Of a DNA stretch of 64,000 nt, positions 40,601 to 63,800 are shown one piece after another. The position numbers and the translations under genes are program-made. The notes beneath the pieces are model-generated. The model saw only the letters and a list, made by a program, of their open reading frames with translations, did no database searches and had not been told where the DNA came from. The DNA is from Owenia fusiformis (lineage: Eukaryota; Annelida; Polychaeta; Sabellida; Oweniidae): contig CAIIXF020000005.1 of NCBI GenBank assembly GCA_903813345.2, forward strand, positions 11,475,375 through 11,539,374, read 5' to 3'. Position 1 is the first letter of the stretch. Each line of letters opens with the position of its first letter.

Positions 40601-42515
40601 TCCCGCCATTTTTAAACTGGTGGCCATCTTGAAAAACATTTTTTGCATAAAACTGTTCACCAATATACATCTTTCCACCAAATATGAAGAAAATCTGTTG
40701 ACTAGTATTCGAGTTATCTTCCGGACAGACGGACGGACTGACGGACGGCTTCACTACCTACAGAACTTCGTTCGTTGGGATAATTAATGTATGTCGTTAA
40801 TACAGGATGCTTCTGTAGGTTTTAAGTATTTTTAGTGCTTTCTTCCTCTCATGAAATCCCTTACCCCCATAAATGTGGGGTTATTTTGAGGATTTTTAAT
40901 ATTTAGGACATTTGTTACTCAAAATAACCCCACAAAGTTAAGGCTTTGATTCTTTGGGGATTTGCTAAACAATAGCATACACATAGAATTTGTACTAATA
41001 TTATTAGAATTTACTCACCTTTTTATGTTTTTCGTATCGACAAGACATTAATCTTCAACATGCTACCAAATATAGCCCTCTAAGTGTTGTATTCATTCTT
41101 GTAATGACGATTTAATACGGATAGCAGATACACCGTATTTCTAGAAAAGTTTTTCAAATTTCATGCGCAGTCGATATTTTTATCTAAATAACAAACTTCG
41201 CGCAAATACGAAATCCAAAAGTAAAAATGGAGGGAAATTTTGAAAAATGATTTTCACCTTCCGGAGTGTATTAAAAGGACTGTCAACCTCAAGTTTGGCC
41301 GCTGTAACGTCTACGGCCTTTGTTTTCCTGAACTTAGGCATAAGCAATAATTTTGTTATTAATTTGACAGGTGATTTCGTTTGGCACTGTTAAGTTTCCC
41401 ATCTACCACATAATTCCTCCCAAAATGCAACGCGCGAAAATGGCCAAAATTTGAATAGATTTCGAAAGTCAAATATTACAGCAAATTGTTCCAGTTATAA
41501 AGCATTGTTTCGACTGATCGGTCGCTCATTACATTGGAAAAAGAATCTTCTTCACAGAAGAGAAGAAAAAAGCTAAGGAAACTGCCGATATTGTCAGAAC
41601 TTGAATCTTAAAATCATGTGAAAAAACCGCAAAGAATCAAAGCCTTAAATTTGTGGGGTTATTTTGAGAAACAAATGTCCGAAATATTAAAAAACTTCAA
41701 AATAACCCCACATGTATGGGGCTAGAAATCCCTTGGATAGAAGAAAGCACTAAAAAAACATCTTAAAACCAATAGTATGAAAACTGCCCATGCTTATCCA
41801 TTACTAAGTCTCATGTGATGACGTCCACTCGTTGGATTACAATTTGGTAGTTTGGGACACATATAACTGACAAAAATAGCACACCTCAAATAAATTCCTG
41901 AGTATTTTAGGATTCTTTTTTTTAACCTGTGGCTCATCTTGTGCCAAGACCATCTCAGATTCTGGTCTTGCAGAGCCTCAGTGCTAAATTGTAAACTGCG
42001 GGATTGTAGCTACACACATACTTCTTACCTCACTTGATTCTAAACATGGCAGCTAGTGCCAAAAAGCAGTGGACATTTGGCCTAACTGACCACTTATAGC
42101 TAGATCACTGAATCAATCAATGATGATCAATGAAGAATGATTTCAGAAAGTACGGCTCATTCATCAGTGATCGTTCTGATGTATTAGGACCGGAACAGAT
42201 ACAAGAATAGTAGAATTGACCGAAATCAAAACCCCCCACCCCTAGACTTACTCTATCCTAAAGTTGTTCTGAAATTTTTTGAAAGTTGCCCTAGGCCTAC
42301 TTCACCAACCCCCCCCCCCCCCACCTGATTACACAGTTTTCCTTCTGTATTTGTTATGAAAAAAAGTACAAACCTTGAGGAAAAAGTGAGGCATCTGAAC
42401 TCATCACAGGCATAAGAAAGTTCGAGCCACCGGGTACATTCATCGTAAGACCGTCCCCCGCCGGCATTAGAAGCAGAGGAGGGGGAGTAGCATCTTTCTG
42501 ATTTCGGTCTGCCAT
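19342..42515 (-). CDS. SEC23IP: SEC23-interacting protein (p125-like), complete gene, 18 exons
   Basis: Eighteen exons join with matching phases into 1046 codons including the stop (1045 residues; human is about 1000). Exons, 5' to 3': 42515-42374, 39526-39308, 38572-38120, 37496-37303, 36986-36843, 31055-30902, 30587-30446, 29904-29802, 29459-29354, 28680-28571, 28361-28215, 27615-27520, 25359-25223, 23384-23147, 22164-22074, 21766-21581, 21184-21046, 19678-19342. Domain order: Pro-rich Sec23-binding-type region (about 121-235), WWE-like region from HWFYSK (241-336), VHGIG (418-422), lipase-type GHSLG with Ser551, SAM domain (610-668), charged Glu/Lys/Arg/Gln helix (671-716), DDHD domain (from 717, with HPFDP at 790-794) and a Pro/Gly-rich tail (955-1045). 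In other animals the protein sits at ER exit sites, binds Sec23/Sec31 of COPII and phosphoinositides, and supports ER-to-Golgi transport. An ATG ten codons upstream (42,545) is possible, but the chosen start, MADRNQ, matches the MAERKP-type vertebrate start. Confidence 0.95.
21046..21184 (-). CDS. SEC23IP: SEC23IP exon 17: DDHD domain end
   Basis: 139 nt. [20 protein letters not shown] and [10 protein letters not shown], the last strands of the DDHD fold. Confidence 0.95.
21581..21766 (-). CDS. SEC23IP: SEC23IP exon 16
   Basis: 186 nt. [16 protein letters not shown], then a helical, acidic segment ending QAETS. Matches the LKESL.RMGSDLKQ block of the human protein. Confidence 0.94.
22074..22164 (-). 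CDS. SEC23IP: SEC23IP exon 15
   Basis: 91 nt. [12 protein letters not shown] and [10 protein letters not shown] continue the DDHD domain; AYR.EP and HHKGRKR.H are conserved in the family. Confidence 0.95.
22261..22834. mobile_element. MITE with TTAGAGCTGGCATC ends (family B), SEC23IP intron 14
   Basis: Perfect 14-bp terminal inverted repeats (TTAGAGCTGGCATC and its complement) bound 574 bp with further inverted GTCGACAT/ATGTCGAC-type words inside. The open frames within are symmetry by-products. It shares end words and the interior style with 7718-8304. Confidence 0.82.
23147..23384 (-). CDS. SEC23IP: SEC23IP exon 14: DDHD domain start
   Basis: 238 nt. Contains [20 protein letters not shown] and [14 protein letters not shown], core DDHD motifs including the conserved His and Asp (His790, Asp793). 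Confidence 0.96.
23874..23970 (-). repeat. Dispersed repeat, CATTTTGCATGTTAA family
   Basis: Contains TGTCACCACCTGTCATTTGT and CCAACTCTTGTGGATG-like words (reverse complement). Other pieces lie at about 4070-4150, 29,545-29,645, 54,140-54,245, 56,450-56,570 and 63,160-63,215. The family is not recognised; no tRNA-like promoter boxes were seen. Confidence 0.65.
24146..24350. mobile_element. Short foldback MITE, SEC23IP intron 13
   Basis: Arms of about 60 bp are near-perfect inverted copies: CATATCGGGTGTCCCAAAAA on the left, and on the right, in reverse complement, CATATCAGGTTTCCCAAAAA. The arms continue through TGAGCCACTTTTTGACAA on both sides. Total about 205 bp. Confidence 0.85.
24975..25125. 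repeat. C-rich minisatellite, about 24-bp unit
   Basis: About six copies of a unit like CCCCACTACACACCTCCCCT in SEC23IP intron 13, just 3' of exon 13. It is strand-asymmetric: the transcript would be G-rich. Confidence 0.93.
25223..25359 (-). CDS. SEC23IP: SEC23IP exon 13: charged helix
   Basis: 137 nt. A strongly charged Glu/Lys/Arg/Gln segment ([20 protein letters not shown]) likely to form a long helix or coiled coil. The 22-bp minisatellite of intron 12 begins 13 bp upstream of its acceptor, so the polypyrimidine tract is very close to unstable DNA. Confidence 0.85.
25372..25915. repeat. Minisatellite, about 22-bp unit, adjoining exon 13
   Basis: More than 20 copies of a unit like GTCATAGTGTACATGAGAAA in SEC23IP intron 12, beginning next to the exon 13 acceptor. 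Confidence 0.95.
26447..27468. mobile_element. Decayed mariner-like element, SEC23IP intron 12
   Basis: The ends CAGGGTGATCAATAAATAAG are identical inverted repeats for about 32 bp and remain similar further inward (ACTATGGCAACTGGAG against GCTATGGCAACCATAA in complement). TA flanks both ends. The interior (about 26,850-27,170, plus strand) holds degraded transposase-like words: [13 protein letters not shown] resembles the mariner LPHPPYSPDLAPSDF block, and [16 protein letters not shown] resembles the C-terminal part. Stops and frame changes interrupt it, so it is inactive. Confidence 0.78.
27520..27615 (-). CDS. SEC23IP: SEC23IP exon 12: SAM domain, second part
   Basis: 96 nt, 32 codons. 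[19 protein letters not shown] is the conserved C-terminal SAM helix region. Confidence 0.94.
28215..28361 (-). CDS. SEC23IP: SEC23IP exon 11: SAM domain, first part
   Basis: 147 nt. Acidic linker, then [20 protein letters not shown] and KEKIDMETL, the first helices of the SAM domain. Confidence 0.94.
28571..28680 (-). CDS. SEC23IP: SEC23IP exon 10
   Basis: 110 nt. [11 protein letters not shown] finishes the hydrolase helix; the rest is an acidic, Pro-rich linker to the SAM domain. Confidence 0.92.
29143..29277. mobile_element. Long palindrome / foldback, SEC23IP intron 9
   Basis: Arms of about 57 bp (ATCCTATGATTTACTCGTGA and its imperfect complement on the right) surround a GC-rich loop, CTCTCTCGCTACGCTCGCTC. 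A second small palindrome, CATACGATGTCGTATG, lies about 150 bp to the left. No coding content. Confidence 0.75.
29354..29459 (-). CDS. SEC23IP: SEC23IP exon 9: nucleophile elbow
   Basis: 106 nt. Ends in [10 protein letters not shown] plus the first base of Gly, so the serine-hydrolase elbow GHSLG (Ser551) is completed by exon 10. The nucleophile is retained, although vertebrate p125 is reported to have little phospholipase activity. Confidence 0.94.
29545..29645 (+). repeat. Dispersed repeat, CATTTTGCATGTTAA family
   Basis: GTTATAGTCTCCAACTCTTT, a GGCGTTCAGCAGTTGGTG stretch, ACAAATGCCAAGCGGTGACA and TTTTGCATGTTAA appear in the same order as in the copies at 54.1 and 56.5 kb. Confidence 0.7.
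29802..29904 (-). CDS. SEC23IP: SEC23IP exon 8
   Basis: 103 nt. Encodes [20 protein letters not shown] plus YCQ, matching the [20 protein letters not shown] pattern of vertebrates. Confidence 0.94.
30446..30587 (-). CDS. SEC23IP: SEC23IP exon 7
   Basis: 142 nt. [15 protein letters not shown], then [20 protein letters not shown], a family hallmark. Donor GTAAGT splits an Arg codon. Confidence 0.94.
30902..31055 (-). CDS. SEC23IP: SEC23IP exon 6: VHGIG segment
   Basis: 154 nt. [12 protein letters not shown], then the strand-turn segment [18 protein letters not shown], which opens the alpha/beta-hydrolase-like part of the intracellular PLA1 family. Confidence 0.95.
31065..31345. repeat. Degenerate short repeat, ATATGTGAA words
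   Basis: Irregular repetition of AATATGTGAAGTATATG-like words in SEC23IP intron 5, next to the exon 6 acceptor. The minus-strand frame through it (HILHIL-type) is a repeat by-product. Confidence 0.8.
31430..31870. repeat. Two diverged direct copies of about 240 bp, SEC23IP intron 5
   Basis: Blocks such as CAACAATAACTTTTTTTTAT, GGGTCACCG and CAAAACACTAAAATCACTCTTA-like text occur twice, at about 31,436-31,640 and 31,674-31,870, in the same order. Confidence 0.75.
33387..33779. mobile_element. Foldback-type element with 26-bp inverted ends, SEC23IP intron 5
   Basis: The left end starts AAAGGACGATTCTCGGTTTG and the right end is its exact complement for 26 bp. Inside, a block of about 190 bp containing AGAAATATTACCCAAATTAA occurs twice as a direct repeat. 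No coding sequence. Confidence 0.85.
34577..35158. mobile_element. Mariner-type MITE, 582 bp (copy 2), SEC23IP intron 5
   Basis: The left end CAGGGTGGGCCAATAACAAT and the right end (reverse complement) CAAGGTGGGCCAAAAAATCC are flanked by TA. The outer 13 bp match the element at 6772-7381; the interior differs. Confidence 0.82.
35843..35913 (-). repeat. Dispersed repeat, inverted partner of 7541-7610
   Basis: ATAAGAAACCAGGCCCCAGG, then CTAGGTCTAATGTTGTTGGA, is the reverse complement of the copy near 7.55 kb. Lies in SEC23IP intron 5. Confidence 0.6.
36843..36986 (-). CDS. SEC23IP: SEC23IP exon 5
   Basis: 144 nt, 48 codons, phase 0 on both sides. Contains [18 protein letters not shown] and PDEWGTT, highly conserved in this family. 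It is followed by the longest intron of the gene (5.8 kb). Confidence 0.95.
37303..37496 (-). CDS. SEC23IP: SEC23IP exon 4: WWE-like region
   Basis: 194 nt. Signature pieces are [26 protein letters not shown] and [15 protein letters not shown], near-identical in pattern to vertebrate SEC23IP and DDHD2. Confidence 0.95.
38120..38572 (-). CDS. SEC23IP: SEC23IP exon 3: Pro-rich region and start of WWE-like region
   Basis: 453 nt, the largest exon. About 115 residues of Pro/Gly/Ser-rich sequence (the region that binds Sec23 in the human protein), then HWFYSKHIE and [17 protein letters not shown], the first half of the WWE-like region. Confidence 0.93.
39308..39526 (-). CDS. SEC23IP: SEC23IP exon 2
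   Basis: 219 nt. Contains EADSFVGQT, which matches the short conserved EEDSFLGQT-type motif of the vertebrate N-terminus, then a disordered Pro/Ser/Gly-rich stretch with a DPFG word. Confidence 0.88.
40140..40781 (-). repeat. Dispersed repeat, GGCCGCCATTTT family, SEC23IP intron 1
   Basis: Ends with CAGAACTTCGTTCGTTGGGA preceded by GGACAGACGGACGGACTGAC and contains several CCATTTTTGAATTTT-type words. It is in reverse orientation relative to the element at 57,432-58,694. Confidence 0.65.
40820..41769. mobile_element. Large foldback element, arms about 147 bp, SEC23IP intron 1
   Basis: The left arm (40,820-40,966) and right arm (41,624-41,769) are inverted copies sharing TTTTTAGTGCTTTCTTC, ATGTGGGGTTATTTTGA, CAAAATAACCCCACAAA and AAGGCTTTGATTCTTTG. 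About 650 bp of noncoding DNA lies between them. Confidence 0.85.
42374..42515 (-). CDS. SEC23IP: SEC23IP exon 1 (coding)
   Basis: 142 nt, residues 1-47 plus one base. It starts [13 protein letters not shown], is hydrophobic and Pro-rich and has low complexity. Donor GTTTGT is weaker than the others. A 30-nt in-frame upstream extension to 42,545 is open. Confidence 0.85.
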
Positions 42516-42808
42516 TTCCACGTCAAGTAAAGGAAGTGACGTCATTCATGTCATTGCTTTGATTTTTTTTGATTTTTTGTTAATTTTGATAAATTGGTAA
42601 TTTGATGAATAAATGGAACATTATATTTTTATATTTGTTGATAAAATTGATAAATAAATAATTTTGAGACTATGTTTATCGTTCTCGTTTTGGCGGGTTT
42701 TCCAAATCCACATGTTTTATTTCCCGCCATTTTTCTAAACAGGTCGCACGTCCACTACGCTGTTGCTCCATTTATTCAAGTTTTGCGGTGTTTGCTGCAT
42801 CGCCAAGG
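42516..42808. promoter_or_regulatory. Bidirectional promoter between SEC23IP and MCMBP
   Basis: The start codons of the two divergent genes are 293 bp apart. Within the gap are TTTTGGCGGGTTTT (42,687-42,700) and ATTTCCCGCC (42,719-42,728), both close to the E2F consensus TTTSSCGC. The second overlaps AAAATGGCGG on the minus strand, a YY1-like word. No TATA box is placed convincingly for either gene. E2F control of MCMBP would fit its role with the MCM proteins; that is inference. Confidence 0.6.
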
Positions 42809-42866
42809 ATGCCAGGAATTGAAGATTGGTTGCATTGTCCTCTGGACATCATACAGAATATATATG
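42809..42866 (+). CDS. MCMBP: MCMBP exon 1
   Basis: 58 nt, residues 1-19 plus one base, [19 protein letters not shown], matching the MPCGEDWL..PL start of vertebrates. Donor GTGAGA opens a 10.7-kb intron. Confidence 0.92.
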
Positions 42867-45800
42867 GTGAGAATGTTTACTGTAATCGTGTCAAAAAGTG
42901 ACTTAAATCAAAATATCAGAGATGAATGAAAAATCACATGGCCGGAAACAAAGACAAAGATTTGTAAGCAATTACTCGCTGAGGTTTTGGTATGATTATC
43001 TTGTTATACTCTGTTTATTTCTAGTATAATGTTGCCTTAGTTATGTAGTTATCATTTCCACTGCCAAATTTGATGTGAAATTCCGATTTTTGATAGAAAA
43101 TCTGATTACAAAACTTGACTTTCAACACGTCAAAACGTTGTGTTCATGTTGTCAGTATTTCTTATCCTGTTCCCGGACTATGGTCCTGTGAACATCTCAC
43201 TCTTTTGCCTGTGCGATTACAACATGGGAGAGTTTTTTACGCTTCTTACACTTCAGATACCTACTTCAATAGATTCCTTGGTATTTTAGCATTCTTTTCG
43301 TGTAGTTGAATCCACAATTGTCTGGGTTTATCGGCAGAACGAAGACATTTTCGTTTTTGATCGCAATATTTGCGTGTAACATTTAACTTATTTCAACCGT
43401 CAAATTCCTCCATATTGGTACTTCCGGTCCACATCCGGGACAGTCATACGGGGGATTCCCCTTTTAAATCCAACCGCCATGTTGAAAAGTGATGGAATCT
43501 CTCTCGATGAAAAAGAAAAATGTTCCCGTTCTGCCGATATACCCAGACAATCGGCGGTTCCAATACATTAGAAGTTACATTTTGAGTTCTATAATGCATT
43601 GAGGTAGGTATCTTAGAGTCCATTTCACTGCTTCAGTTCGTCAGTAGAACGGCAAAAATAAGAAATTGGGAGACCATTGTACAATAATATATGGAAAAGT
43701 ATATTCATAATGTACATGAATGACATTTGTATATCTTGGATTGCTTCTAGTTTGGCTTATAAAGTGTGTGGCCTCTTATATTTGGATGTTTCTCTGCCAT
43801 GTTATTTTCAATAAGATTAACATGGCTGAAATTCTTCAAATTACAAGACGGCACAGGCTTATTGCACAAAAAACTAAAAAATCTGAAATATACAAATGTC
43901 ATTCATGTACATTATGAATATTCTTTTCCATATATTATTGCACAATGGTCTCCCAATTTCTTATTTTTGCCGTTCTACTGACGAACTGAAGCAGTGAAAT
44001 GGACTCTAAGTGTAAGGGGCGTAGATAATTCTCCCAAGTTGTAATCGTACAGGCAAAAGAGTGCGCTCCATACAGGACTATAGTCTGGTACGTAGTATGT
44101 ATCCAACAGACTGACTAGAAGTCAGTCTGTTATGATGTACTACTTTCCTGTGGAAATTGCAGTGAAATTTTTTGCACAAAATTATCAATTGGAGGAACCA
44201 TTTTTTCAATAAAATAAACATTACAAAATTTCAATTAAATAGTAAGGTACAATTAAATGCAATAAAAAGTAACATAGCATATTGTCAAGTGGAAATAAAG
44301 CTAGTTGAAATAACAAATGTGCAAATTAATTTTACCCAATCGGCCATTTTGAATAGCACTTCCTATGTAAACAAATATATAGAATTGCCAAACTTTAACA
44401 TAGGTGCCTTATAGTCTGAATATAATTCAGACTAAATAGGATATAGTCTAGTCTGGTACGGGATAAAGTATTTCAGTTTTTCCATTTTTGAAAAAATTGA
44501 GCTTTTGATTGCCTATTTGTTATGTTTTATCTGCGCACAACCTAATAGAGATGAACTGCAACTACAAGGGTAATCTGGATATAATTTTTGTGCAAAACTG
44601 AAAGATGAAGGGTACCCTTTGCATTCGTTTGACTTCACTTCTGAAAAGAGAGCTTTGTCTTCACTTTTTCAAACTAAAATAAACCTGTGAATTCACTGCG
44701 CAAATCAGTGTACGTCGGCCAAATTTGACCGACGTTCTATATATGGTCATTCCTTCTGACATCATTTTTGAGCCCGGAATTGACCAATGACATGCGCATA
44801 TTTAATTAGAATGCATTAGGCGTATGTTTCTTCAAACTCGCTGATTGGTGGAATAAAGGTCAGCGCGTAGGTCAGAAGTGATTATTACCCAAACTGTCAC
44901 TGGTACCTGTCGTGGGGGCGGGGCTACTAAACTGTACTATGGTCTCTAATAGGCAGAGTGTAGTTTAACTAGACTGCACGCAGGGTAGATGAAGGGGGTA
45001 ACTTTGACACCTTGTTTATTTGCTCTAATTTCTGATCTAGGGGGAAGCCATGTTTTTTTCCGCATGGATCGAGATCACGCGAGATTTTATAATTTTTCCA
45101 GAAATCAGACATGGCGGAAAACTGAAATTCTACTTCAAATATACCTAAGTTTCGAAGTTACCCTGTCTCTTATGTCAACATTAGCCCACACGTCAACGTT
45201 ACACCCCTTTGCCCTAAAGAAAGATGTTAAGAGAAGACCATGATTTTTTAACAACTTTGATCATGAAAAATAAGGAAATGATGATACTCATTCACCACGA
45301 ATTTAGTTACCAGTACGTATTATGTGCTAAAACCTCCATAAGTTCCATTGTAAATTTGTCAAAAAATCATGATCTTCACTATAGACCATGGGATGAGTTA
45401 AGTGTACAGCGGCTTTCAAGAGGAAGTTCTTCAAAGGCCATGGTAGGCCTACCTGAACATAGCATTGGACTGAGTCCAGCTTAGAAGCCATTAGAATTTC
45501 TTATCATGCTGATATACATCAGTAATCTCATGTTTTAAAAAGCTCACCTGATTTCGTTGCACTGTGCTTTGTGGCAGTTTTCTAAGAACTGAATGTATTA
45601 CTGTTACTGCTAGGACGGAAAATGTGCAATCTTTGTGTTATATGCTAAAATTGCACATATCCCGGCCTTACAGTAGCAGTCTTTACAACATTTCAACATT
45701 GCATAAATTACATTTCTTTACCTTTGATTGTGATGGCATGTTCATCATCAATCATTCAAACATTTTACAATAAGGAAATGTATTTTATTGATGGTGAGAA

Positions 45801-48800
45801 ATTTTCGAACAAATAAGAAGACAAAAATGGTGAAGATTAATGGAATCTAAAATGTGAAAATGCAACAGTTCAGTTTGTTGATGGAAGGTCTAGAAAGAGG
45901 CAGTCTGTATGAGATAGTCAAACTGCACCTGTCTCGGCCTCCTGTCTCAAACAATATCAACAAAAGATATAATTGAAAAGTTGAGTGAAGACAACAAGAA
46001 CTAAAGTTCAGCTGAGGATATGGACACATCAACCTGCAGAGTTTATGATATAGTAGAAGTTTATGACCATGTCAAGCTTTCTTTTATGAGCTGTAGTGTG
46101 AGTTTTGATAATAATACTGCTTGTACTTTCAAAATACATGTACATATTCTTAGAGCGTGCATGACTTTAGGATGTTCTCTGTGTAGGCTAAGACGTGTGC
46201 AAGATTGTTTGTGGTAGCTCAAATTGCACTTGTCTCGGTCTGCCAAGAGAAAAAAATTGACTAACAAATAACACCCAATATCGATATGTTGAATAGACTG
46301 CTACTTTGGCATACTTTTGACTGTTACCTACAACTATCCAGTATGCAGTTGAACTATTATGTTCTTTCAAAGATTAAAAATCAAAAGTTTTGCTTGTGGA
46401 AGTCTGCACTTTCTAGTCGTGGAGTATGCAGAACGAGACCATATTCAATGATATTTGAGAAGCTGAATAAGTAATGCATGTGAGTAAGCTTTTACCTGGT
46501 TTCTAGTTGGGGTCTGTAGGCCTTGACAGGTTGCAATATTTGTATTTTTGTAATCAAATTGCACTTGTCCCGGCCTGCCTGCTGCAATCTTTGCTACCAA
46601 CATAAACTACAACCAACCAGAGAATGAAATAGCTAGCTTTTTAAATGACCTTATAAATCAAAGAATAAAGATTCTATCGCCATTATAGACTATTATTAGG
46701 TTTAAACAGGTTTGAGAAGAGTCTGGTGCATTTTGTTGAAGTTGTAGAACTAGAGCTGAAGCTAATAACTATGATAAATGGGTATAATGTTCAACTAATG
46801 AGTTTTTAATTGCTACTTTAGCTCCAACCTTATGTAATTGTAATGGTACTGCTTCCTGGTTAAAAGCAGAATCAGATCTATAGGGAGTTTACCATTCTTA
46901 TAGACAAATATTACATTATTGTTAAAATCATTAGTTTCCTCAAATAAAGTATTTTGGGTATTTTTAGAAAATAGACTTTAGGGGCATTTAATATTATGCT
47001 CAAGGATGAATATCCAATATGTTCTCTCAATAGAGGAGCTGCTTTACAGGGCAAATCAAAAAAGTGCAACAAACAGTTGTCTTATAAAGCCACAAAACCA
47101 GTGCAGGGGTTTCAATAAGCACAGGCGGATGGCGAAAACGCCTGTTCAAATCTCAATTACGCCTGTTCAAATATGTAGAAATAAAATTCACTGTTACTTA
47201 CCTTACCCTAAATTATTTTAGTGAAATAAGTTTCAGCCTGTTGAAATTTGCCAAAAAGAAGAGTCTGGTGCATTTTGTTGAAGTTGTAGAACTAGAGCTG
47301 AAGCTAATAACTATGATAAATGGGTATAATGTTCAACTAATGAGTTTTTAATTGCTACTTTAGCTCCAACCTTATGTAATTGTTATGGTACTGCTTCCTG
47401 GTTAAAAGCAGAATCAGATCTATAGGGAGTTTACCATTCTTATAGACAAATATTACATTATTGTTAAAATCATTAGTTTCCTCAAATAAAGTATTTTGGG
47501 TATTTTTAGAAAATAGACTTTAGGGGCATTTAATATTATGCTCAAGGATGAATATCCAATATGTTCTCTCAATAGAGGAGCTGCTTTACAGGGCAAATCA
47601 AAAAAGTGCAACAAACAGTTGTCTTATAAAGCCACAAAACCAGTGCAGGGGTTTCAATAAGCACAGGCGGATGGCGAAAACGCCTGTTCAAATCTCAATT
47701 ACGCCTGTTCAAATATGTAGAAATAAAATTCACTGTTACTTACCTTACCCTAAATTATTTTAGTGAAATAAGTTTCAGCCTGTTGAAATTTGCCAAAAAG
47801 CCTGTTGAAAAAATATTTATTGAAACACCTGCAGTGAGGACTGAATCAATTTCATTCAATGCACCATGGAGTCACATCCCTCCTCTTTTCAACGATATGC
47901 CATTCATTCACACTATAAGGTTTGGTTGGGCAAAAAATCATTGCTTTTGCAGTGGTTCAAAGTCTGCTCTGGACCAAGTTTTAGACAATTCCATAAGTCA
48001 GTGCAAGGGCTAAGTGCTAATGGAAGTTCTCCTGACCTGAATTGTTGTGACTCCTATCTCAGGAGCAGAGTAGTGATCTGCGGTATTGAAAGAAGTACCG
48101 TTACGGTGGCATTCTGGCCTTATGTCGGCACTGAGAGTATGGATTATTTTTATGAGAATATGTATTTGTTACTTACACATTTTAGAACGGGCGAAGATTC
48201 AGCAAATAACCATTCATTGTGTGTATTTAAAAAAGATCAGATTTGTGCGGTGACGCATCAGCTGTACGGTGACGATTCATTATAATTTGTGAAAGTAATA
48301 TAAAGAACTCATTATCATTCATTATAAGTTTTGGTGTGGAAGTTCAAATGTCGTCAAACTGATCAGTATCAACAGACGATACTGCGGTCACTTTTGCATT
48401 TAAGATGGCAGACAGGAAGAGACAATTTCACTGAGTTAAACTTCTTCATAGTTGGTGTTATGCTTTGATGAACTAAAAGAGACCAAGCTTATCTGATCAC
48501 TGATATAGTGCATGGGCGCTACAGTTCAACGATATCTTCCAATGCTTAATGGAAGGTTTAAATGGAAATGTATGATATGGTAAGGATCATGAAACCAAAA
48601 ACTCAGTATATTTGTTGCTATGTTATTGATGCTTTTAAACAAGTGATGTCACAACTAAATCTCATCTTGCACGTGTGACTTTTAAGGATGAAAGATGCAA
48701 TATCTTGCATGGGGTGAAGATGGCTCTTGGCTATCTTTGTTAGTGTTGAATGGGATACAACATTTGAATTTCCACACAAAAACTTATGGAATCTTACGTA

Positions 48801-51800
48801 TATGAGCTCATATATTACACTTCATAAATTCTAAGGGATAAAAATTATCCATTCTCTCAGACGACAGGGAAAATAATAACCAAACAAAAAGTGAGAAAAA
48901 CAACATTTTTCTTTTGAGTCGACTATGTGGGCCGATCCAGTCAGAAAAAATCCAAGCAGTGCTCGAAAAACTTTTATCATAATTAGAAAGTTGAAACCAT
49001 TTCTAAGAGAATGCTGTTTTTATTACATCGTATTTATTTTCATCTAATTAATTTTTTTAAAAACTCATTACAGTTTTTACTTCAACTCAGTTAATTTTCG
49101 TCACCGTACAAAAATTTGTACTACTGTATTTTTTGACGCTGTACGGTGACGCCTGCTTACGCGATGGTTAGGCGTGCACAGATGACTCAGGGCTGAACCA
49201 TGCATGACGTGGACAGATGAGCGCACCTTTATGTGCAAGGAAGTGGTGGCAATTTGGAGGGGTAAAGGATGTATTCTTGCAAGAGTATGAGTATGAACAC
49301 TTTACTGTCTATGCCAGACCTGTCACACCTTCTTCCAATAGCCCTTATGCCCCTTGTATTGACTTTTGCAATGTTTAAAACTTGGGTCCGAGCTGAATTT
49401 TGCCCCACTTTGCAAAATTAATGATTATTCAGCAAGCCATGACTCCCTGTGAATGAATGATATTCCATTGCAGAGAGGAGTAATTTAGCTTTTTGGAACA
49501 TTGAATGAAAAGGATGCAGTCAGCATTGGTTTTATGTTTTCTTCCAAAATTCCATCGAGCTCCGTACACTGACTTTTGCGATGTTTATAACTTGGTCCCA
49601 AGCTAATTTTGGCCCACTTTGCAAATGGAATGATCACTCGCCCAACCATGACCAAATATCAATGAATGATATATCATTGTAAAGAGGAGACACATGGCTA
49701 AATGGTGCATTGAATGAAATCAATGCTGTTATCACTGGTTTTGTGCTTTTCCTAGATAACAATCTGTTGCGTTTTTTTGAAACGCACTGTGTAGGTAAGG
49801 ATAGAGGGATAGAGTAGAGAAAAGAATTACAAAAAAATATGAGAATTTCTGACATCTGTTCGACTGCAGTATTAAGATCATTAGGTTTTTAGCTAACCAT
49901 TATTATTACTTTTGTAGGTTTTGTAGCGGCGGGTATTTAATTTGGCGGAGTCAGGACTGAACTCAAGTTTTATCATTGATCTGGAAATAGCATTCAGATT
50001 CACATATTCTACGTGCAGTATAGCACTGACATCAGATAGGAATACTTACACAAGTGAAATAATTGCAAATCACAAATTACTTTGGGGATTTTCTAAAATA
50101 GATCTAAAAATTGCCAGATTATTAATTTGGCAGATTTTTTCAATCCGCAAATCCCGTCAAATTAAAACCGTAGTCAAATTAAATGTATCTACAGTAATCG
50201 CCATCTTTAAATGAAAATTAAACAGATCTGATAATTTTATTTTCAAAAGTGGTGACATATTTTTGTGGTCATGGCGGTTGGCGTCTGTAACAATTTCTTA
50301 CAACTTCCAATAATTAGCAAATACTGTTTAGACTGACTTCAGATTTTTTCAAAACCATTTACAAATCTAGAAGTTAAAATCGGAGTTCAGATTTGAGATT
50401 TAACTTTCAATGACCTTTTCAAGGTAAAAAAAAAGTCCAAAATTTTTTCAGAATCCCCTACAAATTCTCAGAAGTTCCAATCTGACTTAAGATTCTACCT
50501 TCAACTTCATATACTTGATTTCAAACAAATTCTTCCAAATTCCAAAAACTTTAACAAATACTGTTTAGACCGACTTCAATTTTTTCAAAATCATCTACAT
50601 GTTTTCAGAAGTTCAAATCTGACTTTATATTTAAAATCTGACCTTTTCAAGGGCAAAACAGGTCAAAAGGTCTTTTAAACTTGCTTAAAATTGACCAATT
50701 TTTTTTTTCAAAATTGTCTACAAGTTCTCAACAGTTCATTCAATGACATTTTCATCTTGCTTCAAATTGACCTTTTTTTCAAAATCATCTACATGTTCTC
50801 AGAAGTTCAAATCTGACCTTAGATTTGAGACTTGACCTTCAATGACCTTCTCAAGGTCAAAAAGTTTCTTTTTCAACTTGCTTCAAATTGACCTTTTTTC
50901 AAAATCATCTACAAGTTCTCAACAGTTCAAATCTGACTATAGATTTGACCTTCAATGACATTTTCATCTTGCTTCAAATTACTCAGATGCGAGTTGGTAG
51001 TTACCAGTTTCGCCACCAGGTGGGCGATTCGGGGGAAATAACATGGTAGGGTATTACAAAATTCCCTTAAACTTGAATATTCATCAGTTTTAGTGGTTCA
51101 CTTTTCATATTACCCTAATCATAATGTATCTGATAGTTATACAAATCAAAATATGTACAGTAAAAGAAAATATTATCTGCCCAACACAAGAAAAGATATT
51201 TCCATTTTTGTGATTTTACAACATGGGGGCTATGGGGAATCTCCCTGACCTAGAAGTCACATTTTCAAAGAAAATTAAATTTTCAAAGTTTATAAACTCT
51301 TTATAAAACCATATTTTTAGATGTAATTTTACATGTAGATTCCAAATATGACATCAGTTTGACTTAATTTTGAATTTTTAATGATGTAAATCAAGATTAT
51401 TTCTACTCTCATCTAGGCCACGCCCGGTGATCGTAAATATGGGACGGAGGGGGGGAGCAGGCAATTTCTGCTAGGAAATTCAACATATCTGGAAGATTTA
51501 TTTTTTCAAGAAAAAGTTTACTATTGAATTGCTAAATGGATAGGCGCACGGTATGGTAGAATATGTTAGGTTTTCTGGGATTTTTTCTGAAACGATACGC
51601 ATCTAAGGTATGAGATCTATTAAAAAAGGCGCAAGGCCATTAACAGGCACAAATTAACGTTTTTGCTATAAATCAAGCAACAATGGTCTGGACGACCTGT
51701 AATAAATACTTGTAAGTGATGTTATCATAACTAAATTAATGTCATTGCTGAATTTATAAAATAAGTTTCCATATGTGAAATAAAAAATAATCGAAAATAA

Positions 51801-54800
51801 TGAATTTGGGACAGAGGGGGGGAGCAATATGTATATAAGACATGATTAGAGATGTTTCGCGACTTAAAGTCCTTTTACTCCAAATGTCCCCATTTTTCAG
51901 TCTCCAGGGGTATATCATCCAGTTTCTTACTAAGTTAATGAGTTCATTTTTCAAATACAAGAATTCGTGTGAAGTTGTTTCACTTTATAGAATTATTACT
52001 CCCCCCTCCCCCACGATCACGGGGCGTGTAGGATATTGACCATTTTTTTCAAAATTACACGTTCTCAGAAGTTCAAATCTTTAGATTTGAGATTTCACCT
52101 TCAATGACATTCTCAGGGTCAAAAAAAGGTATTTTTTCAACTTCAAATTGACCAATTTATTTTTTCAAAATCATCTACAAGTTCTCAGAAATTCAGATCT
52201 GACTTAAGATTGAACTCATAATATTGTGAGCAACTAGGTCGTGACTTTTTGTCATGTTAATGCCTTGCTTCAAATTGACCAATTTTTTTCGAAATCATCG
52301 ACAAGTTTTGAGAAATTCAAATCTGATTTTTGATTTTAAGACTTGACTGTCAATGATCTTAAAGGAACATTCCTTGCCAGACTATTTCTCTCCTGATATG
52401 GTAGCTACAATCATATATATACTTTACATATTTAGCAAAACACGGGAAAAAAAATTTCAAATGGTCAATATTGATCATTTAAAAATGTAGTACTCATTCC
52501 CAGTAAGCTGCCATGTTTTCAGATTTCTTTCAGGAAGTGATGTCATCGACTCTCACCTGTTATAACCTTGTCTATTACTGTATAGGAAAGAAGTACAAAA
52601 TCACTTCTAAACAAGAAGCCCTTATCTTCTATGTAAAAATATTTTCAGGAGTTGTCAACTTAGAACTAAAGAAGAGATCATCAAAAGGATTTTAATCATA
52701 GACCAAATTGAAAAAAATATTCAGCTGGTTTAGTAATTCTAATAGCTCCTTACCTAATGTTATATGCAAAGTTGAGAGTCGATGACATCACTTCCTGAGT
52801 GAAATTTTAAAAGATGGCAGCCTACTGGAATTGAGCACTACATTTTTAAGTGATCAATATTGACCATTTCAAAACATTTTTCTGTTTTTGATAAACTTGC
52901 AAAGTATGTATATGGTTATAGCTACCATATTAGGAGAGAGATGGTCTGGCAAGGAATACCCCTTTAAGGTCTTTTTCAACTTGCCTCAGATTGACCATTT
53001 TTTCAAAATAATCTACAAGTTCATCTGACAGTTAGCAGCATGTAGTGGTTGAACAAATTCTGGAAATCAAAGTCGACTAGTTGAGGCACAAAAGTTGAGT
53101 TGAAGTTGATTTTTCTGACTTTTCATGAAAACAATTATTTTAAGTAGAACATGGAGTTACACCCTCATGCTTAGATTGAAAGAAATTGAAAAACAAAATT
53201 TTGAACTTTGGATTTAGTCTTTTTAAGAGCAAGCAATATTCGCTACATGTTTTCTGAATGGCAAGATTTTATATTTCCATCAGCACGTACAAATGCCCAA
53301 GATGATTAACCAATCAAATTTATCACAGAAACTTACACGTGTGCCTGAAACAAACAAGGGCAAAAATTAATAATTAATAGCACTTGGAGATAAAAAAAAC
53401 TTTCCATTTGCCTGTTTTGTTTTGTGAAATGTTAAAACATTTAGGCAAAGTAGCTTTAAATACAAAGAAAACTAAAAGTATCAAAAATCAAAATCTACAC
53501 TTGCCATCCTCCATTTTGAAAGAGTGAAATGTCCCTGGTTTCATGTTAAATTATTAAACTTAAGACATATTTTTCATTTTCAGACCAGAAACCAGAACAT
53601 CATGATGAAGCTATCAAAGAATATTTCACTGCACGTCTGAATGCTAAAAATGCTCTGAGCTGGGTAAGAATTTAATCGTCTTTTAAATGTCCCTTTAAAA
53701 CAAGAAAGTATGCCCACAACTTATATGATTTTGTTTCTTCCACTTGACCATATATCTGATGTAAGAGAATGAACAGCATTGTATAATATGCATCAGTTTT
53801 AGACATATAAGGCAAAGTTGAAAGTATACCTGAACTATATGCATGTATCTATCTATTATACCTTTCAGATCCCATCTCTGAATGATACTCCACTACATGA
53901 CTTGAAGCCTAACTCTATAGTGAGGTACAGATGCATGGTACAAGATATGTTTGACCCGGAGTTCTTTCTGGGTGTGTATGAAGTCACAGACAAAAATACT
54001 GGCCAGAGTAAAATACATTCTGGCAAATATAAAGATATTGCCTCATGTGCAGTAAGTGTATTGTAGTGCTTTCTAGTGTTCACATTGGCCCATTGTTACA
54101 TTGTAACTTGCATAAGAAAGATTTCGAAAGGTTTTGTTATAGTCTTCAATTTCTTTTTGGGTGGTGTTTGGTGGGTGGTGTTCAGCATTTGTAACAAATG
54201 GCAGGTGGTGACATTTTGCATGTTAATACCTTGTTTACAAAATACAGAAATCCTCAAAGCCAGGATTAATTCTTTTTTTAAATATCTCAGAATAATCTCA
54301 AGCTAGAGCACCTCGATTGAATCACCTTTTATGTCCCATAATTTAAATAATCTACAAGCCATTCAAAAAATATAAAATCTGTGTAGTCTTCCTTGGATTC
54401 ATCTATTTCACCTTGTCTAACATCAAGGTCTTATTAGATAACTTCTATATGTTAAAAATGAATAGAAATGTTTTCTCTTTGCACAACATTGCATCAATTT
54501 ACACCAGTAATGATCAAACTGAGTTTTAAATATCTGATGGCAAGATTCATTCTTCCATTAACATTTTTATCTAGAATAACCTTACTTTGTAGGCTCACCA
54601 ACAGGTAAATGTTGATTCTAACAGAAATGTGACAATGGAGAGGCAGAAACTGTACTGTGTTCCAATTCCAGGAGAGACTCAATGGGTCAAAAATGTATCC
54701 TTATTGACAGAAAAATCAGCAAATCTTCCATGATAATATTATCTCCGGTTTTAATGCAGTTCTGGTTTCTGAGAACATTTATGGTACACTTTTCAAAAGT

Positions 54801-60800: not shown

Positions 60801-63800
60801 AAAGTCCATTTCAGAGGGCAAAATAGGATAAAAATATATAATAGCTCCAGTCCAAAAGTCTTGAAAAATATTGCATTTGAAAAGACTGAATTGATCAGTG
60901 TTAATGTGTTCACCAGTTACTTTGTTGAGTCTTTGATTATATTAAAAAACACTGTCATTAAAGTTGTACACAATTCTTTCCAGTAAACCCATTGTTCAAT
61001 CAAATATTTTGATGATTGAACATATGCTTATATTGTGGTATTGCTAAGATATGTTGACAAAAGCACACATTGTTGTTAATGGTTTTATGCATAACCATGG
61101 GAGCTTTGTTTAATGTTCCCTGCATAAGTTTGTTTATGTAGATTGGAAACTCAGTTTTTGTAAGATCCAGTTTCCAGAATTCAGCTTCATCTCTTATAAT
61201 GTTTGGTTGGATTTGTAAGAGCAGCTGTTGCAAACATTGGTTGATGTCATATTTCACAACATACATGTTTTTTTCAATACCTCCAAACCATATATACATT
61301 TTATACTCAGTCATTGCTGTGAGAGAAATATCCCTTGTGGTACGAATAGCTCCTTTTTGTTTTCTTTCTCTCACAAATGAATATATGAAAGGTGTTATAA
61401 GTGGAGCAGATGCAAGCACAAATGCTGTTGTTACAATAAATACAGCAACAGAATAATCCACATTATCAAATGGCATTAACAGCCAAATGGAATATTGTTC
61501 TGTTTGGGGATCCTTACCTTGTAGCAAATTACCCAAATTTCCAGCACCCATCGCTATCCAAAATCCAAGCCATACAAGTCCCACTATCGATAATATGAGT
61601 ACACAACAAACATATTTTGGTAGGCATCTGAAGGAGGCCCGTGCAATTCTAATGCCAGATTCATGAAGATTCAGTGTTTGTAGTATTTCATTCATCTTTT
61701 CTTCAGATATTGTGATACCTCTTTGCTCCAACTCGTCTGTACCATTTTCGGGCATATCAAACTTCAGTTTTGAACCACAGCATCTTTGCTGGATTGTTTC
61801 CCTAAGTAGGAAAGAGGACCCATTGGCACGTAAATTAGCATCCTGTGGGATAAACCCTTGGCCAGGCTTCTCTACATGCTTTCGTAGCATCACCGCAGCT
61901 TTCGGTATATCTCTATCTGTTACATCGACGTAGTTAATGTGCTTTATCGTGTCTGGTATGGGGCACTCTTCCAGCATGATTGGTAGTAAGCTGATATTAT
62001 TTGCTACGGATGCAGTCTGCGCCATCTGCATTTCCCACTCACACCATCGACTGTCCATGAATGCGGGTGTCAACACAAACACAGTTCTCATGCTACCTGT
62101 GATACACCGAAACATCTCATTCATATCATTTTGACCTGGCAGGAAGTCCCGCTCACTGAATGCACACTGGAGATTATAGGGCGGAGCTTCAAGAATTTTC
62201 ACAACAGCCCAGACCCATGCTAGGTTCACAGAGGAATGGCAGAAGAATAAATGATACTCCTTCCCTTCCTCCAATTCATGCTCCAAGATTTCACCAGCCA
62301 CGACACCAGCAGCATCAATATTTACAATGACCTCATCCATTATTTCATTTTCTTTATCATATTGTTCCTTCATATTTTCGACAACATGCATCTCTAATCC
62401 AGAAGCTCCACCATCTTCACCTATAGGTGTGTTGATCCCTTCGATATCTTCATTATCATGTTCAATTAAATGTCTGTATTCATCACCCATTGTTGTTGCT
62501 GTTGTGTTTAGACTAACTAATCTTTTGCTAGAATATTCTTTGCACTCTTTAAAGGAATTATGTTATACTGAATGTTTTGTCTAAAATATTAGTTTCTTCT
62601 AAGAATGAAATCTACAGCAAGTAGCAGAGACAAGGAGGTGCTACTTGATGCATTTGCTTCATGTGAGCTCATTTTTTCTTGTAATCATCACTAAACAGTT
62701 CTCGGAAGTTCCAAAAATAGATATCACATCTTCTCTGAAGCATTGGAAGTTGTATGCCAATTTTTATAATAAACATAGCAGGAGATTGAATGACTCACTG
62801 TCTATGAAAGTTGAGATTCCCGCTTATGAATCACACCTCGACTATGAATGATCTGCAATGTGGAATTAATAGCACATTGCATTACACTATAAATACACAA
62901 GGACAATGCTTGATTTTATTGCTTTTCCTGATACTTGCATCTGGATGATTCCAGGTTAGTGCATATTGGGAAATGTAAAGGCATTGACGGGATGCTTGCA
63001 AGGACAGGGCAATTTGCCAGTCATGAAATGTCACTCTAACCTTGGCACTCAATTTAGCTTAATGTTAACTGAAACAATATTAACCGAACTACAGTCTAAC
63101 AAAAATGTGCATGGTTTAGAAATCCAGAAAGGTTGAGAATGGTTTAAGAAATAAGTGTCTGTAACAAATGGCAGCTGGTTATATTTTGCATGTTAATACC
63201 TTGTTTTTGAAATGTTGCAGCTGTTAAACATTGAATAAATAACTACAAGTAGGCCTATATTAGATCATTTTTGGAGGGGCCGTATATGCTTTAAGTATTG
63301 CATTGTATTTATACATCCTTAATTTAATTGTAATATCATGGTTAGAATCAATTGCTCTAGTCATTACATGTGCATCTCTTTAAAGGCTCATGGAACGTTA
63401 TAAGCACTTTGTATCACACCTCCTTGACAGTATGGGTTTTACGATTTTTTTATCACATGACAAGTGACTTGTGTTTTCACACTCGCCAATGAAAATTTAC
63501 ACTCACCACAGTGTTGTCACTGATGATAAATTATAAGTATACTCACAGTTTTCTTGTGAATAAAAATCTTTAAAAAGAAAGTATTATGTTTTTCAAAGTA
63601 CTAAAAATTGACTTTGTTCTATAATATTCCACAATGGCGAATTTCATATTTTTCATGTTAAACAATGTGGCAAGGCACTTCAATTTTACACTAGACTCTA
63701 AATATTTTCATCCACTTGGGGCTACTGTCAAGTGGATATGACCCACACTGCTTGACTTTGACTCATTAGGTCCTCAGTTCCAACCTCGCTGACCTCATTC

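Follow-up and report, generated by a model that had tools for sequence, protein, structure and literature searches.

The MCMBP locus of Owenia fusiformis and its intronic hairpins

We analyzed a stretch of 64,000 nucleotides from the annelid Owenia fusiformis (contig CAIIXF020000005.1, positions 11,475,375 to 11,539,374 of the forward strand, on C5), referred to below as the window. It contains the beginning of the gene for the MCM-binding protein MCMBP, and the first intron of this gene holds four hairpins, W1 to W4, which are candidate microRNA genes of the miR-92/25 family (Table 1). A sequence-only reading of the window had proposed a miR-92/25 cluster inside MCMBP intron 1, on the sense strand of the host, and the matches to the MCMBP domain (PF09739), together with the in-frame exon joins, support this placement. 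PF09739 gives 11 matches, in order on one stretch of C5 from window position 53866 on, and none elsewhere in the genome. The protein joined from exons 1 to 3 resembles human MCMBP. The cluster starts 2.7 kb into the intron.

RNA folding and mature-arm comparison agree on four hairpins on the MCMBP strand at the places originally proposed, each with a miR-92/25-type 3' arm. The folding energies of W1 to W4 are -35.0, -30.0, -31.7, and -35.1 kcal/mol, with z-scores of -6.5, -3.1, -5.8, and -5.2, and shuffled sequences fold as well as the native one in 0/200 cases for W1, W3, and W4 and in 1/200 for W2. Between 16 and 20 of the 22 mature bases are paired in each hairpin. The first mature bases predicted here fall on the same four nucleotides as in the sequence-only reading, and the spacing, given there as about 270-340 bp, measures 272, 301, and 335 bp.

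Comparison of the mature arms bears out the description of copy 4 as canonical and of copy 3 as nearly miR-25. W4 contains the 19-base miR-92 core, ATTGCACTTGTCCCGGCCT, without mismatch, while W1, W2, and W3 differ from it at two, three, and two positions; 7e-8 exact copies of this core would be expected on both strands of 64 kb at the base composition of the window. In W3, ATTGCACTTGTCTCGGTCTG matches positions 2-21 of human miR-25-3p. The miR-92 seed AUUGCAC (mature positions 2-8) is kept in three of the four hairpins, W1, W3, and W4, and the two changes of W1 lie further along the mature arm. W2 carries ACUGCAC instead and thus lacks the family seed, so that on its sequence we class it only as a seed-changed relative of the miR-92/25 family. 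All four 3' arms include CGGCCT or CGGTCT, a 3' part of the CGGYCU type. W1 is nearly palindromic at window 45604-45676 and can form a miR-92-like hairpin on either strand (-35.0 and -37.5 kcal/mol for sense and antisense); an antisense microRNA from W1 is conceivable from its sequence.

Table 1. Coordinates of the features discussed, in positions of the 64,000-nucleotide window.
Feature	Position	Strand	Remarks
Hairpin W1	45600..45683	+	predicted mature 3p 45649-45670, AATTGCACATATCCCGGCCTTA; miR-92 seed intact
Hairpin W2	45872..45955	+	predicted mature 3p 45921-45942, AACTGCACCTGTCTCGGCCTCC; seed altered to ACUGCAC
Hairpin W3	46173..46256	+	predicted mature 3p 46222-46243, AATTGCACTTGTCTCGGTCTGC; miR-25-like
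Hairpin W4	46508..46591	+	predicted mature 3p 46557-46578, AATTGCACTTGTCCCGGCCTGC; canonical miR-92
MCMBP exon 1, coding part	42809..42866	+	ends in phase 1; 19 residues; N-terminus resembles human MCMBP
MCMBP intron 1 (GT...AG), host of the cluster	42867..53583	+	10.7 kb; exons 1-3 in frame
MCMBP exon 2	53584..53663	+	in-frame join
MCMBP exon 3	53869..54051	+	PF09739, E = 6.9e-22; in-frame join
SEC23IP-MCMBP start-to-start interval	42515..42808	.	start codons of SEC23IP at 42515 (-) and MCMBP at 42809 (+); likely shared promoter
E2F-type site TTTGGCGGG	42689..42697	+	120 bp 5' of the MCMBP start codon
E2F-type site TTTCCCGCC	42720..42728	+	89 bp 5' of the MCMBP start codon

A second and larger cluster on C7

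Searches with the Rfam model RF00464 and with a mature-arm pattern revealed seven further hairpins, A to G, spread over 9.6 kb on the minus strand of C7 (C7:16092917-16102486). The miR-92 seed is kept in all seven. Hairpins F and G, 623 bp apart, are 97% identical over 92 nt, so tandem duplication is still enlarging this cluster. W4 and copy C share one and the same 22-base mature arm, so that reads alone cannot separate these two, and the mature arms of W1, W2, and W3 differ from those of every C7 copy. Hairpin B (L005:5754, minus strand) has a miR-25-like mature arm that equals human miR-25-3p over 21 bases; in a 2009 amphioxus paper, miR-25 is listed among the microRNAs not known from protostomes (PMC2728532). 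Open reading frame lists over 30 kb gave no nameable host gene for the C7 cluster, with one possible short exon seen by eye between the copies.

Over positions -4 to +26, the nearest C7 copy is A for W1 and C for W4, and W3 is closest to C (0.83), followed by D (0.80) and B (0.77). The TCTCGGTCT of W3 is shared only with copy B. Duplication of a whole cluster between the window and C7 was considered and set aside, as W3 is nearest to C rather than B and the collinearity is suggestive only.

Genome-wide, the mature-arm pattern with at most one mismatch occurs at 19 places, of which 12 belong to the clusters in the window and on C7, counting one antisense place on C7, and seven are scattered singles. 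With two mismatches, the 155 matches compare with 167 for the control, which is the level of chance; places at this distance were considered only among the matches listed, and more diverged copies may have escaped. A miR-92-like core with two mismatches, antisense to the C7 cluster and inside it, lies at L005:1591 on the plus strand (C7:16094591). It forms no hairpin (-2.4 kcal/mol), and on the strand of the cluster it reads as an almost perfect miR-92 complement. It could be an inverted copy that has decayed, or else a target site built into the cluster.

Tests against chance

The conservation of the hairpins is concentrated in the mature arm. Over mature positions 1-22, the mean identity is 0.80 among W1 to W4 and 0.84 between these and six C7 copies, compared to 0.27-0.29, the level of chance, in the flanks. 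Across the 11 hairpins of both clusters, 85.4% of stem positions form standard pairs against 74.5% after shuffling, and 24 stem cells are changed on both sides against 8.3; in either measure, none of 500 shuffles reaches the observed value. When the partner column is slid by one to three positions, pairing falls to 30-43%. A further view of the window copies is given by the model R2, which was built from the seven C7 hairpins only and searched against 154 kb. It recovers W3, W4, W1, and W2 with 51.5, 49.9, 43.3, and 29.6 bits as the top four sense-strand matches, with E-values from 9.8e-15 to 5.6e-7 (the latter for W2), and gives 38.7 bits for the antisense strand of W1. These three tests (identity, covariation, and prediction by R2) are largely independent of the initial call, which was made by eye.

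The CNNC motif, located on the Drosha side of the hairpin at +16 to +18, adds a further element. It starts at +16 after the mature arm in W1, W2, and W4, and is absent within 30 nt of the mature arm of W3 and, likewise within 30 nt, from the antisense strand of W1. In the range +15 to +17 it is found in three of the four window hairpins, in five of the six distinct C7 copies (A, B, D, E, and F), and thus in 8/10 distinct hairpins, G being left out as a near copy of F; the chance frequency is 0.086.

At relaxed thresholds, W1 has its best Rfam score with the mir-310 family (RF04249), a fast-evolving relative of miR-92 that forms a cluster in Drosophila: 41.9 bits on the sense strand and 44.9 bits on the antisense strand, both short of the 48-bit cut-off. 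W3 and W4 score 28.1 and 28.3 bits with the mir-92 model, whose cut-off is 47. Among the places scored with RF00464, RF04249, and RF02020, none of the seven C7 hairpins reaches the gathering cut-off (0/7). The bantam hairpin of the same genome, which indicates a protostome, is also below threshold, with 53.2 of 61 bits, so the Rfam models seem to underrate this lineage, and we take the gathering cut-off as a practical threshold rather than a biological trait. The build of the four hairpins, their family sequence, the way in which they are conserved, and their location are all shown by the sequence, and on this basis we predict them to be microRNA genes of the miR-92/25 family.

Host promoter, E2F-type sites, and other features of the intron

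The neighbor of MCMBP on the minus strand carries DDHD and WWE_3 domains and is taken to be SEC23IP. The two start codons lie head-to-head, 294 bp apart. SEC23IP and MCMBP are neighbors in human too, so this gene pair may be old. The start-to-start interval contains two E2F-type sites, searched as TTTSSCGS, the form of the E2F motif; the whole 64-kb window contains five and 104 kb contain seven, all counts including these two. At least two such sites occur in 24 of 5000 Markov-resampled promoters. As a positive control, the 10-kb pieces upstream of eight MCM domains (80 kb) yield 15 E2F-type sites, distributed over six of the eight pieces, with back-to-back pairs in three of them.

In plants, the MCMBP orthologue ETG1 is directly targeted by E2F (PMC2806904). 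Human MCMBP promotes the assembly of MCM2-7, and MCM genes are driven by E2F (PMC9018068). The sequence-only reading had suggested a tie of the microRNAs to replication-linked transcription; this tie gains indirect support from the two E2F-type sites, the sites upstream of MCM domains, and the E2F control of ETG1 (PMC2806904), while co-transcription itself, like E2F control, processing, and targets, is what we infer.

Some other features of this region were observed. Just 3' of the cluster, window 46715-47556 is a tandem duplication with a 542-bp period, 300 nt of which are 100% identical; it is either a recent event or an assembly fault. Long inverted repeats of mobile-element type, 81-87% complementary, occupy window 43612-44010 and 52352-52974 in intron 1. 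On the minus strand, window 61000-62562 is an open frame that encodes 520 residues and includes a TIR domain; it runs antisense to MCMBP, nested between two exon matches of that gene that lie near 59.2 kb and 64.0 kb.

Origin of the linkage to MCM-related genes

The sequence-only reading had left two possibilities for the presence of this family in a gene for an MCM-binding protein, namely an independent linkage to licensing genes or the trace of an old association. The independent linkage emerges as the likelier of the two, and the old trace finds no support. A search for the MCM domain (PF00493) gives 28 matches at eight loci and none on C7, where the larger cluster lies. No place matching the mature-arm pattern with at most one mismatch is found within 300 kb of the eight MCM loci, the nearest being C4:31561543, at about 320 kb. 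The hosts also differ between lineages: the miR-92 host is jigr1 in Drosophila (PMC4441384) and the mouse host is Mcm7, in intron 13 (PMC3082007). On these grounds, which for the mature-arm pattern cover places with at most one mismatch, an old MCM association is regarded as unsupported. Since the family has its larger home on C7 and not in an MCM gene, the MCMBP linkage and that of vertebrates are best regarded as separate. An ancient association of miR-92/25 with MCM-licensing genes, common to MCMBP and vertebrate MCM7, could draw on the miR-25-like W3 and on the MCM-like domain of MCMBP, which may share ancestry with MCM proteins (PMC9018068); against the distribution described above, we regard such a common origin as very improbable.

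Proposed explanation and alternatives

We consider it probable that the four hairpins form an intronic miR-92/25 cluster that is co-transcribed with an S-phase gene and became linked to it independently. The MCMBP pre-mRNA would start at the promoter shared head-to-head with SEC23IP, with its two E2F-type sites, and the intron would be transcribed as cells prepare for replication. From this intron, Drosha would then excise W1 to W4, whose 3' arms would be loaded as mature miR-92-type guides. The sense orientation of the cluster within intron 1 supports co-transcription with the host. Most likely, the linkage to MCMBP arose within this lineage, through an independent landing or a duplication, and we conjecture that it was favored or tolerated since miR-92-family guides may be useful in proliferating cells.

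Several observations weigh against this explanation. No hairpin of the window reaches the Rfam gathering score (0/4), at which the whole window is without a match, and for W2, which combines an altered seed with the weakest fold of the four, Rfam gives nothing at E <= 10. The antisense strand of W1 folds equally well and has the higher mir-310 score. The alignment on which the pairing structure was scored had also served to derive it, so the slide and shuffle controls favor it. The +15 to +17 range for CNNC was picked post hoc, and at +16 to +18 the motif is present in 6/10 hairpins. Stable hairpins alone are not rare, since -27 kcal/mol is also attained in five further regions of the intron; the excess over chance lies in the mature arm combined with the structure and not in a stable fold alone. 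Two of the eight MCM upstream pieces have no E2F-type site, and as the pieces were placed by domain and not by start codon, the sites in the others are promoter candidates only. Finally, the 10.7-kb intron is roomy enough for a separate promoter.

This last point leads to the main alternative, in which W1 to W4 are real miR-92-family genes driven by their own promoter inside intron 1, with MCMBP as a mere neighbor. The position of the cluster, 2.7 kb into so long an intron, would suit it, and in a mouse study the loss of FoxO3 lowered Mcm7 mRNA and not miR-106b~25, the authors themselves raising a separate promoter (PMC3082007). Yet with the cluster in sense orientation and the promoter of the host well placed, there is no need for a separate one, and we consider this alternative unlikely. 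A partial decay of the cluster, in which W3 and W4 would be functional while W1 and W2 degenerate, backed up by the C7 cluster, is possible though doubtful. It would account for the seed change of W2 and its lowest R2 score, for the divergence of W1 and W2 (and W3) from the core, the largest of the four, and it fits the presence of seven other copies on C7; W1 and W2 nevertheless retain CNNC at +16 and folds that beat their shuffles, while the flanks have lost all likeness. That the hairpins arose by chance or from mobile elements and are not microRNAs seems extremely improbable: other stable hairpins and inverted repeats do occur in intron 1, but the family-specific mature arm, the independent model R2, the covariation, and the position of CNNC all speak against it, and a repeat search at length >= 40 did not group the four hairpins as repeats.

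Possible targeting of the host by W2

The target of the altered W2 seed is GTGCAGT, and an 8-mer match, GTGCAGTA, is present in the MCMBP 3' UTR (untranslated region) at L009:5910, with a 7-mer match in the coding sequence at L009:4689; exon limits in L009 were set by eye, with the MCMBP stop at about L009:5777. A third GTGCAGT, at window 54047, straddles the donor site of exon 3, so that splicing removes it. GTGCAGT occurs seven times in about 31 kb, and about 0.05 occurrences are expected in the roughly 220 nt from the stop to the first AATAAA. The 8-mer match is weak evidence, as this was one of two seeds tried, and free duplex energies did not single out the 3' UTR site. Targeting of the host by the canonical seed was rejected, no GTGCAAT being found downstream of the MCMBP stop to L009:9732. 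On sequence, the 8-mer is a lead only. Drosophila miR-92a and miR-92b repress their host jigr1 (PMC4441384), which makes the idea of W2 acting on its host worth testing, and no more. In its fullest form, an E2F-driven MCMBP transcript would yield three canonical guides that control proliferation together with a W2 guide that pairs with the MCMBP 3' UTR and coding sites and damps the host in S phase. MCMBP would then follow MCM7 and jigr1 as the third host gene to have captured the family independently, and would be the second licensing gene to have done so. This scenario is quite improbable.

Comparison with known systems and significance

The arrangement resembles that of the vertebrate miR-106b~25 cluster in Mcm7 intron 13, with a miR-92/25-family hairpin on the sense strand in an intron of a replication-licensing gene. 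It differs in its host, MCMBP (PF09739), with the MCM-domain loci elsewhere, and in its content: in vertebrates, miR-25 is accompanied by miR-106b and miR-93, whereas here all four hairpins are of miR-92/25 type. A fold scan of 44957-48027 revealed no further plus-strand hairpin at -27 kcal/mol or better, with no search aimed at miR-17. As in Drosophila, where miR-92a and miR-92b reside in jigr1, members of the family lie in a protein-coding host of a protostome; the hosts are unrelated, and jigr1 carries one copy in an intron and the other in its 3' UTR, compared to four copies in one intron here (PMC4441384). The C7 cluster of the same genome shares the family, the arm, CNNC, and, between W4 and C, the mature arm itself. 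It differs in lying on another chromosome, in keeping the seed in all copies, and in its wider spread.

The hairpins belong to a known family. As far as our searches show, MCMBP was not found reported as its host in the literature covered, which included few subscription papers and had miRBase and MirGeneDB outside its scope. If co-transcription holds true, miR-92/25 would lie in licensing genes of two distant lineages by separate routes, in MCM7 in vertebrates and in MCMBP here, and this would suggest that the coupling of miR-92/25 to S-phase transcription is repeatedly useful.

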